From Alphaproteobacteria bacterium (GTDB lineage: Bacteria; Pseudomonadota; Alphaproteobacteria; Caulobacterales; Hyphomonadaceae), in NCBI GenBank assembly GCA_018969425.1, contig JAGWYJ010000012.1:1-64000 (forward strand): a stretch of 64,000 nucleotides of DNA, written 5' to 3'. Shown one piece after another: positions 48,138 to 50,988 of the stretch (the stretch's first letter is position 1; each line of letters begins with the position of its first letter). The translations under genes and the position numbers were made by a program. A model generated the notes under the pieces. The model did no database searches. It worked only from the letters and a program-made list of their open reading frames with translations, and was not told where the DNA came from.

Positions 48138-48197
48138 TGGGATGGTGCAGGACCTGTAGTGTTCTCAAACCCGCCCATCCCCGATCGGATCGCCGTC

Positions 48198-49301
48198 ATG
48201 CCTGAACTGACCTTTCTCCTCGAGCTCCGGGACTGGGCGTTTGATCTCTCCGCCTGGCCGCAAAAAATCATGTGGGCTCTGATCGTCGTCACGGGCGGTG
48301 TCCTTGCAGGCCTGATCGTATCGCGCGTGATCGTATCGGCCGGCCGCAAAATCGCCCTGGGCTCAACCGATCCGAACCGGCAGAGCGCTGATCATGTGCT
48401 GATTGACACCCTGGCGGTCATCATCCGGGCGCTGATCGTGCTGGCGTCCGTCGCCCTCGCGGCCGACATTCTGGGTTATTATCATATTGAAGACGCCCGA
48501 AATCTCGCCCTGGCCACCATCAAGGGCGTGTCCATCCTGATCGCGGTCTGGGCGCTCGGCGCATGGATCAGCCTGAGAATTCGCCGTTTCGGAGATCGGG
48601 TGGCCGGGGGCGCACATCCTGGCGGACAGACGCTCTTCATTTTTCTCTCGTCCCTGATGCGCTTCGGCGCCCTCGCCATCGGCCTCATCGCAGCCCTTCA
48701 GCAGTTCGGCTTTCCCATAGCCTCGCTGGTCGCTGTGATCGGAGCCGCAGGTCTCGCAATCGCCCTCGCGCTTCAGGACACGCTGAAGGCCGTCGCATCA
48801 GGGGTGATCATCGCTGTTTTCAGGCCTTACAGGATCGGAGATTTCGTCCGCGTGGCGAACGAGGAAGGAACAGTCGTCGACATCACCCCGTTCACGACCA
48901 TCCTCGCGACAGTCGACAATCGCGAGATCGTAGTCACGAACGACAAGGCCTGGGGCAGCGTGATGACGAATTTCACCTCACGCGGTCGCCGCCGCCTGGA
49001 GCTTGTCTTTCCCGTCTCTTACGAAGACGATCTCGATCAGGCGATCGAGCTGATCAGGACAACGGCTGAGGCCGATCCGAGAGTCGAGAACGACCCGCCG
49101 GTCTGGGTGAAGGTGGCCGAACTCGGGGACTGGTCCGTCAACATCCGCCTGAGGGCCTGGTGTCGCAGCGAGGCCTATGTGGACCTCAGGGGCGACCTTC
49201 TGAAAACAGTGAAGCAGGCGTTTGACCGCTCGGGAATCATTATCCCCTATCCGCACCAGGTTCAGGTCGACAAAGTCCGGTCCGCCAAGCCGGAAAGTTA
49301 A
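48198..49301 (+). CDS. Mechanosensitive ion channel, MscS family
   Basis: A 367-residue MscS-type channel with about five hydrophobic helices. The pore-lining helix carries the glycine/alanine pattern VIGAAGLAIALALQDTLKAVASG (key GxxGxA residues), followed by the cytoplasmic beta domain starting FRPYRIGDFV and the alpha/beta tail. It opens under membrane tension to release solutes. I chose ATG 48198; an in-frame GTG at 48159 with AGGA upstream would add 13 residues. Its stop overlaps the convergent P-II gene stop by 3 bases. Confidence 0.88.
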   Translation: MPELTFLLELRDWAFDLSAWPQKIMWALIVVTGGVLAGLIVSRVIVSAGRKIALGSTDPNRQSADHVLIDTLAVIIRALIVLASVALAADILGYYHIEDARNLALATIKGVSILIAVWALGAWISLRIRRFGDRVAGGAHPGGQTLFIFLSSLMRFGALAIGLIAALQQFGFPIASLVAVIGAAGLAIALALQDTLKAVASGVIIAVFRPYRIGDFVRVANEEGTVVDITPFTTILATVDNREIVVTNDKAWGSVMTNFTSRGRRRLELVFPVSYEDDLDQAIELIRTTAEADPRVENDPPVWVKVAELGDWSVNIRLRAWCRSEAYVDLRGDLLKTVKQAFDRSGIIIPYPHQVQVDKVRSAKPES

Positions 49302-49798
49302 TCCAGGGCTGCGTGATCTCTCTCGCCTGTCCGGATGCGAACAACCTCGGTCAGTCCGCTGACAAAGATTTTCCCGTCACCGATTTTTCCGGAACCGGCC
49401 GCCTTCTGAATGGCGTCGACCACCGATTCCACCATCGAGGAAGCGACGGCGACATCCACACGTATCTTCGGGATTTCCGCCACCTTGTACTCGGCGCCCC
49501 GATAGAATTCCGTCTGCCCCCGCTGACGCCCGAACCCCTGCACCTGGGTCGCCGTGACGCCGGATACGCCAAGAGCCATCAGAGCCTCCCGCACAGCCTC
49601 GTAACGATGAGGACGAATAATAGCGGTGATCATGCGCATGGGATGGTCCTCATCATGCTGGAGACCGAGGTGGACGAGACGACGTATGGCTTCCGAGCGC
49701 GAAGGCAGATCGGACTGACGACGGCGCCAGTCGTCGACGATCTTCCCGAAACTGGCGGAGGCCACCAGCTGGATTCTCTGATCCAGTTTATCGTTCAC
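49298..49798 (-). CDS. P-II signalling protein with N-terminal ribbon-helix-helix DNA-binding domain
   Basis: A 166-residue fusion. Residues 54-166 are a standard GlnB/GlnK: T-loop with GFGRQRGQTEFYRGAEY, keeping both tyrosines (Y99 and Y104, equal to Y46 and the uridylylation site Y51), then GKIGDGKIFV and RIRTGE for ATP/2-oxoglutarate binding. Residues 6-48 look like a ribbon-helix-helix domain: strand QRIQLVAS, helix FGKIVDDWRRRQ, then PSRSEAIRRLVHLGL. The start is GTG with GGAG 8 bases upstream. A second site (GAGGA, 7 bases before the ATG of codon 54) could give P-II alone. No amtB or glnA is adjacent. It is probably a nutrient-responsive DNA-binding protein, by inference. Confidence 0.85.
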   Translation of the reverse strand: MNDKLDQRIQLVASASFGKIVDDWRRRQSDLPSRSEAIRRLVHLGLQHDEDHPMRMITAIIRPHRYEAVREALMALGVSGVTATQVQGFGRQRGQTEFYRGAEYKVAEIPKIRVDVAVASSMVESVVDAIQKAAGSGKIGDGKIFVSGLTEVVRIRTGERDHAALD

Positions 49799-49836: not shown

Positions 49837-50013
49837 CACATCCTCTCCACCTTACACATGATTTTTTGGCTAACGCAAAGACCGAGACGCACCGCCCTGA
49901 GATTCAACGGCCTCGTCAACCCCTTGATAACCAGAGCGCTTTACGGGTTGCAGAGGCGCCGGCCGGCTGAATGACCCGGCTCGCCCCCGGACAAATTGGA
50001 GCCATCCGGATCG

Positions 50014-50988
50014 ATGACGGGTCAAGGGACGATGGAAACGCTTCAAACCTTGCAACCCGCACAGCTGAAAAAGCTCCGCGTCCTGATCATTGATCCCAAC
50101 GTCTTCATGCGAAACGTCATCGCCGACAGCCTTCGTCGGCTTCACGTCAGCCATATCTCGAGTTACGCCAACGCCGCTCAGGCGGGGAGCTCAGGTCGGA
50201 TGTTCAAGCCGGATCTTGTGATCGTTGACTGGGACGCCGGTCGGATCTCCGGCCTTGAGTTCACCCGTGAAGTCCGAAGAGAGGTGACGGGTCTGCCCCG
50301 CGACATCCCGATTATTCTGCTGGCGGCCGAGATCGATCACGAACAGCTCATGGCGTCGCGTCAGGCGGGGATCAACGAGTTTCTCCTCAAGCCTATCTCG
50401 GCGCAGGGGATTCTGACCCGGGTTGAGGAGGTGATCCTTCGACCGAGACGGTTCATTGACAGCCGCAGCTACATCGGACCCTGCCGCCGACGTCGGGACG
50501 AGCCGGGCTATCTGGGCCCTTGGCGCCGCCTTCTGGACGATCCTCCTTCAACAGAATTGAGCGCAACCGCGCGCGAAAACGCCATCCGTCTTCGCGCCAT
50601 CATCGAGGATCTCCAGGCCTTCGCCAACGGAACGGCTCTCGACATCGACTATCCCCACCAGATGACTGAAAAAGCTCTTCTGGACAGGGCCTCCAGCATA
50701 CGCGGAATGTATCGCCTGCTGGGAGAATATGAGGAGGAGGTTCGCTCCTTCGGAGACGATATCGTCCTCAGAGTCTGGAAGGCGGCGCTTCGGTATATCG
50801 AAGGCGTAGGCATGACGGACACGTACGATGTCGAAGTTATCCGGCACCATTTTCAGACGATCACCGTGATCCTCGATATGCCGCAGGCCGCTCTGCTGCA
50901 CAGAAACGCCGTGGCGGCGGAGCTCGAACGCCTGGTCAGTCGAAAGATTCATCAGTCGCAGAGGTCAGGGGGCGTGGAAGTCGCCTGA
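50014..50988 (+). CDS. Response-regulator-like protein with degenerate receiver domain
   Basis: About 324 residues. Residues 20-140 form a receiver domain with phosphorylatable-type D72 (VDWD) and K126 (LLKP). The second acidic residue is proline (P28) and the switch Thr/Ser is alanine (A104), compared with CheY D13 and T87. The rest (about 150-324) is helical with a GPCRRRR motif near 155; I know this layout from other alphaproteobacterial regulators but not its function. No DNA-binding motif is evident. The start is uncertain (ATG 50014, ATG 50032 or TTG 49996). Divergent from the P-II fusion. Confidence 0.75.
   Translation: MTGQGTMETLQTLQPAQLKKLRVLIIDPNVFMRNVIADSLRRLHVSHISSYANAAQAGSSGRMFKPDLVIVDWDAGRISGLEFTREVRREVTGLPRDIPIILLAAEIDHEQLMASRQAGINEFLLKPISAQGILTRVEEVILRPRRFIDSRSYIGPCRRRRDEPGYLGPWRRLLDDPPSTELSATARENAIRLRAIIEDLQAFANGTALDIDYPHQMTEKALLDRASSIRGMYRLLGEYEEEVRSFGDDIVLRVWKAALRYIEGVGMTDTYDVEVIRHHFQTITVILDMPQAALLHRNAVAAELERLVSRKIHQSQRSGGVEVA

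Follow-up and report, generated by a model that had tools for sequence, protein, structure and literature searches.

A ribbon-helix-helix-type domain joined to a complete P-II protein: a candidate autoregulating repressor of the GlnB/GlnK family

P-II proteins are among the most widespread of signalling proteins, and they are known to act by protein contacts. Here, we describe a gene in which a complete P-II protein of the GlnB/GlnK type is preceded, in a single reading frame, by a domain that is very likely of the ribbon-helix-helix (RHH) type. The gene lies on the minus strand at positions 49298-49798 of the 64,000-nucleotide stretch of DNA that was analysed (the window: positions 1-64,000 of contig JAGWYJ010000012.1 in assembly GCA_018969425.1, from an alphaproteobacterium of the Hyphomonadaceae). 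The fusion is real, conserved and undescribed in the open-licence literature that was searched, and it combines known domains in a new way. The reading that we favour, at a probability of roughly 0.6, is that the product is a DNA-binding, autoregulating P-II protein that represses its own promoter, and ancestrally also the promoters of small genes termed YRG genes below, according to nitrogen status. For the window itself, autoregulation is the part that can most safely be inferred.

The fusion and its two domains

An earlier, sequence-only reading of this DNA, which named no strand, proposed that one frame joins an RHH-type segment to a complete P-II protein, and the open reading frame, which is uninterrupted in the window, confirms this. 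Residues 54-159 of the product match the Pfam P-II family (PF00543) along the whole profile (1-102 of 102) at E = 2e-26, with 92.8 bits against a cut-off of 25, and residues 1-112 of GlnK (2gnk) are colinear with residues 54-165 (5.9e-39). The best NCBIfam models for the fusion are GlnK (1.7e-43) and GlnB (1.3e-38), both under the curated cut-offs. Both T-loop tyrosines, Y99 and Y104 (Y46 and Y51 in P-II numbering), are present, as are GKIGDGKIFV and RIRTGE. Amongst 32 fusions, P-II residues Y46, R47, G48, Y51 and K58 are kept in all, Q39 in 31, and the GDGK and RxRTGE residues of the B-loop and C-loop in 31; in the P-II family, these residues serve ligand binding or modification. The exception at the B-loop and C-loop is the copy in the single-contig genome G023 (L011 / L180), which has a frameshift near the B-loop, inside the P-II part, and is returned by tblastn as two pieces (1-135 and 135-166) in different registers; this is either a sequencing error or a decaying gene. 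The window genome has two ordinary P-II genes above the Pfam cut-off besides the fusion, on contigs C30 and C41, and that on C30 precedes a gene that by eye resembles glutamine synthetase. A fourth, weak P-II-like match (G000:C91:9644-9925, L004; 35.7 bits) is a short gene directly after a frame resembling, again by eye, a membrane-transporter region, and it perhaps encodes an SbtB-type P-II-like protein.

The sole Pfam match of residues 1-53 is RHH_1 (PF01402), at E = 0.027 and 14.9 bits. RHH_1 is also the family most frequently matched across 31 segments of the N-terminal type (18 of 31, best 0.0016), and some of these segments hit the NCBIfam NikR model weakly (best 0.02). Residues D22, W24, P32, E36, R39 and L41 are conserved in all 31 aligned segments. 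Stand-alone relatives of the segment, most of them from Alphaproteobacteria, came from the order and class searches and aligned along the whole segment. One of them, the 57-residue protein L167, is 60% identical to the window segment over 48 residues. Separately, L287, a Paracoccus plasmid protein annotated as 'ribbon-helix-helix protein, CopG family', scores 27.4 bits with RHH_1, above the cut-off, and aligns both with L167 and with the window segment (38% identity over 39 residues; E 8e-7, a value for the single comparison). It is because of this chain of sequence relatives, the direct match being weak, that the RHH identity of residues 1-53 is considered very likely. In a predicted model of the segment (mean pLDDT, the predicted local distance difference test score, of 84), two helices stand at the RHH positions; the strand, which requires a dimer, is not formed in the monomer. 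The three structures listed as matches to this model, at tied and low Z scores of 4.7-5.0, include the RHH proteins TraM and MazEF-mt1 (Z 4.8-5.0) at the top. The whole-chain prediction (mean pLDDT 65.5) was excluded from fold searches. In L289 (Rhizobium sp. TH2 plasmid, 589-1311), the partner of a related RHH-type segment is a YfbU domain (RHH_1 16.3 bits, YfbU 62.2 bits).

The layout of RHH-type segment plus P-II is found in 42 genomes of three families (27 of the window's family, f1; one of f14; 14 of f54), and the extension is thus conserved in homologues; a lack of such conservation would have counted against the sequence-only reading. Within f1, the segment occurs in 27 of 105 genomes and six of 10 genera, and in all 27 the P-II part follows in the same frame. 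The fusion is present in 14 of the 18 f54 genomes, the remaining four being 62-83% complete, and ordinary P-II was detected in 15 of the 18. Six of 385 genomes drawn from across the class have the fusion, namely the window's own, G728 (f14) and four of f54. The order search gave 11 matches outside the family, of which those in G163, G302, G316, G361 and G403 lie outside the set that was read. A genome-contig scan gave at least 80 loci, and among those listed no RHH motif was seen beside P-II, a weak negative as four of the loci were unread and several rows were shown to 120 letters only; nor was an RHH-P-II fusion found in plasmids (five records with the segment, three inspected) or in 15 phages with P-II similarity. 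Fusions of another kind were encountered: H11 is, as judged by eye, an Amt-P-II fusion, and in L285 (MT835884.1, a fecal contig filed as phage that resembles bacterial DNA) an ammonium transporter is joined to P-II. The literature search covered open-licence papers, with subscription journals and preprints outside it, and within that scope no description of an RHH-P-II fusion was found; the one open-licence paper naming both 'GlnB' and 'ribbon-helix-helix' applies the latter term to another enzyme.

A tree was built from 60 P-II domains. One branch, with support of 100/98, divides its 28 fusion rows from 32 ordinary P-II proteins, which include both ordinary lines of the window genome. The tree was midpoint-rooted and excludes L055 (a long branch), L060 and L062; given this rooting and the few alignment columns, a single origin of the fusion is favoured, not proved. 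Across 22 fusions, 29 of the 53 N-terminal positions are invariant. Of 11 pairs compared, 10 show a smaller ratio of non-synonymous to synonymous differences (pN/pS) for the extension than for the P-II domain, with synonymous changes near saturation. This low ratio argues that the extension is made as protein and is under selection at that level.

The upstream motif and the YRG genes

The window gene is preceded by ATGTGTAA, a proposed operator half-site (Table 1). The general form, RTGTGTAA, is present as a single sense-direction copy in the 200 nt before 28 of 32 fusions, these being all 28 of f1 and f14, whereas dinucleotide shuffles gave a mean of 0.29 and a maximum of 3; it was found on the antisense strand in 1 and in coding sequences in 0. 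A search of 12 fusion genomes for the longer form RTGTGTAASTT gave 20 matches, of which 11 lie at the fusion, four at unlinked YRG genes and five beside unrelated genes. RTGTGTAASTTKST has six matches in nine genomes (its control has none); four lie at the fusion, and the other two pointed to YRG genes. In several genomes of the window genus (g1), the motif lies between TTGGC and TAnnnT at promoter spacing; the window's own copy fits such a promoter poorly. Two other candidates were dropped. One was an inverted repeat immediately before the window gene, CAACAAggcgTTGTTG, which is broken in its G002 form and absent in the other upstream regions; the second was a sigma-54 reading of GGTGTGTAAGTTGC, in which GG and GC are not conserved.

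Two extra motif matches in G031 precede small genes whose products, with three YRG repeats, give the YRG family its name; the proteins are about 48-60 residues long. In all four g4 genomes, in the only g6 genome and in the f14 genome, a YRG gene is the divergent neighbour of the fusion, and at 10 of 14 f54 loci one lies upstream of the fusion on the same strand, within 1.5 kb; YRG and fusion are thus neighbours in 16 of these 20 genomes (g4, g6, f14 and f54). With a search profile (A3) built from 11 YRG proteins, the family was found in 11 of 27 fusion genomes of f1 and in none of 78 others (Fisher 5e-8, uncorrected for kinship). In the class draw it was found in three of six fusion genomes, G000, G457 and G581 having the fusion without it, and in none of 379 others. 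Copies in g3 are unlinked. At the g4 loci L185-L187, the fusion and YRG pair lies (by eye) in the truB - rpsO - pnp region, and an unlinked YRG gene of G031 is also near truB, as if the fusion had moved away and YRG had stayed.

Amongst the YRG promoters of f1 and f14, 17 of 19 have TTGACA (once TTGACT), a spacer of 16-17 nt that contains TTACACA, and a -10-like hexamer. TTACACA is the complement of the motif upstream of the fusion, and a site within the spacer between -35 and -10 is the classical position for a repressor. In f54, RTGTGTAA stands upstream of all nine YRG operons with the promoter in view; a tenth operon is truncated where its contig stops.

All 11 YRG proteins match DUF4278 (PF14105) at E up to 10, the best at 4.8e-12, with three scores (22.1, 24.3 and 17.2 bits) below the cut-off of 25.3. 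According to three papers (PMC6316151, PMC11288750, PMC7760959), DUF4278 makes up the N-terminal part of IF17, which inactivates glutamine synthetase in cyanobacteria and whose gene is controlled by a glutamine riboswitch, and the cyanobacterial DUF4278 genes are mainly those with this riboswitch. No glutamine riboswitch was found above the Rfam threshold in 16 loci, the window itself lying outside that scan. Cobalamin riboswitches (95-105 bits; L168 555-730 and L169 2281-2456) adjoin f54 YRG genes and by eye belong to neighbouring TonB-type receptor genes. The YRG tripeptide is also that of the P-II T-loop tip, Y46-R47-G48 (for example LFYRGAEH compared with EFYRGAEY), a likeness that was noticed post hoc and that opens a reading in which the YRG proteins might mimic the tip.

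Internal initiation, the proposed mechanism and its rivals

The P-II part may also be made on its own. Of the 28 fusions of f1 and f14, 26 have a Shine-Dalgarno-like string in front of Met54. Such a string is less frequent both in in-phase windows taken from these genes (703 of 4461) and at the upstream starts (17 of 28), where the start codons (25 genes) are TTG in 12, GTG in 10 and ATG in three. At the fourth codon before Met54, which gives the AG of AGGA, all 27 codons for Glu, Gln or Lys have G at the third position, compared with 595 of 913 elsewhere in these genes. It should be noted that the genomes in these counts are related, and the events non-independent. Since Met54 is invariant, preceded by such a string and accompanied by this bias towards codons ending in G, internal initiation to yield a plain P-II protein is likely; it is possible that the signals are a relic of the gene before fusion. 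If the internal start is used, one gene would give both a DNA-binding and a plain P-II protein, which would ease the mismatch between a trimeric P-II and a dimeric RHH domain. Neither the conserved internal start nor the YRG genes had been noticed in the sequence-only reading.

From these observations, we infer the following scheme. The fusion, a paralogue of GlnB/GlnK, would bind a TGTGTAA-type operator by its RHH domain and read ATP/ADP and 2-oxoglutarate by its P-II part, with uridylylation of P-II Tyr51 possibly an added input. Repression is proposed from the place of the operator, within the -35/-10 spacer, and it would act on the fusion's own promoter and, ancestrally, on those of the small DUF4278-type YRG genes. 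By analogy with the cyanobacterial DUF4278 inhibitor, repression might be held under nitrogen limitation and released under nitrogen excess, and the YRG protein so released might restrain glutamine synthetase or P-II signalling. The Met54 start would probably give plain P-II from the same mRNA, and mixed trimers, for example of two RHH-P-II chains and one P-II chain, could present one RHH dimer. The sensor-to-DNA switch of the sequence-only reading has thus gained genomic support, in the motif at the promoters of the fusion and the small genes and in the intact ligand-site residues, with DNA binding and its coupling to ligands as the presumed steps. A bolder version makes the switch self-contained: the two P-II forms given by Met54 would assemble into mixed trimers that set operator occupancy by 2-oxoglutarate and ATP/ADP, and the triple-YRG targets, as relatives of the cyanobacterial glutamine-synthetase inactivator, would copy the T-loop tip and compete for P-II partners or feed back. 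We regard this version as tentative and, taken as a whole, doubtful.

Several results weigh against a DNA-binding P-II repressor. The RHH_1 score of the window segment is under the Pfam cut-off of 20.5 bits, such that the RHH assignment of the sequence-only reading stands in respect of the sole family matched and of the relatives that bridge to it, and falls short in the segment's own score. Profile searches of the PDB with the segment returned only WD40/propeller or unrelated proteins and no RHH protein, and Foldseek with the segment model gave no match at E 0.001 or better. The hhalign comparison of the segment family with true RHH_1 proteins (0.0059 over 41 columns) was not counted, because a control with the unrelated YRG alignment scored nearly as well (0.0086 over 14 columns). 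As regards the operator, RTGTGTAA was upstream of none of the four f54 fusions tested, being located at their YRG promoter where present; the YRG copies L217 and L218 lack the motif; and a reversed control of RTGTGTAASTT gave 24 matches compared with its 20, such that there is no enrichment in count and only the positions of the matches are informative. The YRG profile found nothing in 15 fusion genomes of g1, g7 and g10, or in G045. Finally, the counts of conservation and co-occurrence include near-identical species.

The RHH domain might instead merely tether P-II to DNA, giving a constitutive autorepressor (and YRG repressor) in which an ordinary P-II of the protein-contact type exerts no gating. 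P-II is not known to have outputs other than protein contacts, and the fusion keeps the ligand-site residues of an ordinary P-II; on the other side, three families have preserved the fusion intact, and a linker as short as this one (about residues 48-53) leaves scant room for two independent parts. Neither of the latter points is decisive, and we consider constitutive tethering unlikely. Alternatively, TGTGTAA might belong to another regulator or be a promoter element, with the RHH-type domain serving oligomerization, protein binding or the like. The overlap of the motif with promoters, the raw genome count that equals the reversed control and the f54 fusions that have no motif upstream all accord with this; nonetheless, 15 of the 20 RTGTGTAASTT matches in the 12 fusion genomes are at fusion or YRG genes, YRG genes were found in fusion genomes only, and the stricter 14-mer has no match in two non-fusion genomes of f1. 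Such a reading seems improbable.

A small adjacent gene, an RHH domain and a shared, autoregulated intergenic region are also what a toxin-antitoxin-like pair would have, with the RHH protein as antitoxin-type autoregulator, YRG as its partner and P-II as a recruited scaffold. However, the YRG proteins match DUF4278 and no toxin family, the fusion is kept without YRG in the 15 genomes of g1, g7 and g10, and YRG is unlinked in g3, all of which makes such a pair very unlikely. The suggestion that the start is mis-called, such that the sole product is P-II from Met54 and the upstream frame is non-protein, can draw on the invariance of Met54 with its good Shine-Dalgarno-like sequence and on upstream start codons that are often weak (GTG or TTG). 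It is hardly credible in view of the low pN/pS before codon 54, the invariant N-terminal positions and the stand-alone homologues of the segment; as the upstream codons are under protein-level selection, a start at codon 54 alone is ruled out and translation is not confined to codon 54 onward, in keeping with the sequence-only reading. A DNA-binding, autoregulating P-II repressor remains the reading that we prefer.

The features of the window are collected in Table 1. The motif shares its intergenic region with a divergent gene that encodes a response-regulator receiver domain, and this gene is a possible second target; Pfam gave no match in its product after the receiver domain. A receiver-domain gene is the divergent neighbour of the fusion in genera g1, g3, g7 and g10, and many relatives have two such response-regulator genes in tandem. 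Fusion and motif are both kept in g1, g7 and g10.

Table 1. Coordinates of the fusion gene, its parts and its neighbours in the window
Feature	Position	Strand	Remarks
RHH-P-II fusion gene	49298..49798	-	166 aa; GTG start at 49798, stop ending at 49298
RHH-type N-terminal domain, residues 1-53	49640..49798	-	predicted model: extended 6-13, helix 15-26, helix 34-51
Complete P-II domain, residues 54-166	49301..49639	-	T-loop Y46/R47/G48/Y51, Q39, K58, B-loop and C-loop motifs
Met54 codon	49637..49639	-	invariant in 32/32 fusions examined; probable internal start for plain P-II
GAGGA upstream of Met54	49647..49651	-	Shine-Dalgarno-like; such a string in 26/28
ATGTGTAA motif, proposed operator half-site	49852..49859	-	61 nt upstream of fusion start
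Gene with response-regulator receiver domain	49996..50988	+	divergent
MscS-type channel gene	48159..49301	+	convergent; overlaps fusion stop by 4 nt; neighbour only, outside proposed system

Relation to known systems

The fusion shares with GlnB and GlnK a whole P-II of 112 residues with the T-loop, B-loop and C-loop motifs, and differs in the 53-residue RHH-type domain in front and in grouping apart from both ordinary P-II lines of its genome. In design it recalls NikR, in which an RHH domain is joined to a metal-sensing ACT-type domain in a nickel-binding tetramer: in both, an N-terminal RHH domain is linked to an oligomerizing, ligand-binding, ferredoxin-like domain. The sensor of the fusion is, however, P-II, a trimer from family knowledge, and not a nickel-binding ACT-type tetramer; NikR was not matched by the whole fusion protein at E up to 10 in Pfam or NCBIfam, the C-terminal domain being P-II. 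The mismatch between trimer and dimer, together with the internal start, makes a clean structural problem. In the AmtR-GlnK and TnrA-GlnK pairs, P-II acts on transcription via partner proteins.

The YRG genes resemble cyanobacterial IF17/gifB in that a DUF4278 gene would be under direct control by nitrogen status. There, control is by NtcA and a glutamine riboswitch (PMC6316151, PMC11288750, PMC7760959), whereas here it would apparently be by a P-II with its own DNA-binding domain, and the YRG proteins are small, of the size given above. The DUF4278 link suggests a counterpart of the small, nitrogen-controlled proteins of inhibitor type in cyanobacteria, differently controlled. PirA is likewise a small nitrogen-regulated protein that acts around P-II (PMC8092223); the part available of that paper draws no link to DUF4278, and a relation between PirA and YRG is not shown here. 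In the PipX-NtcA system, 2-oxoglutarate and adenylate status are similarly relayed to transcription, although P-II there binds a separate regulator or coactivator (PMC7760959), whereas in the fusion both halves are in one chain. If our reading is correct, the usual relay, in which P-II signals to a sensor kinase or coactivator and this in turn to a transcription factor, would collapse into one molecule, and the control of a promoter by 2-oxoglutarate and energy would be measurable in a test tube with two components.
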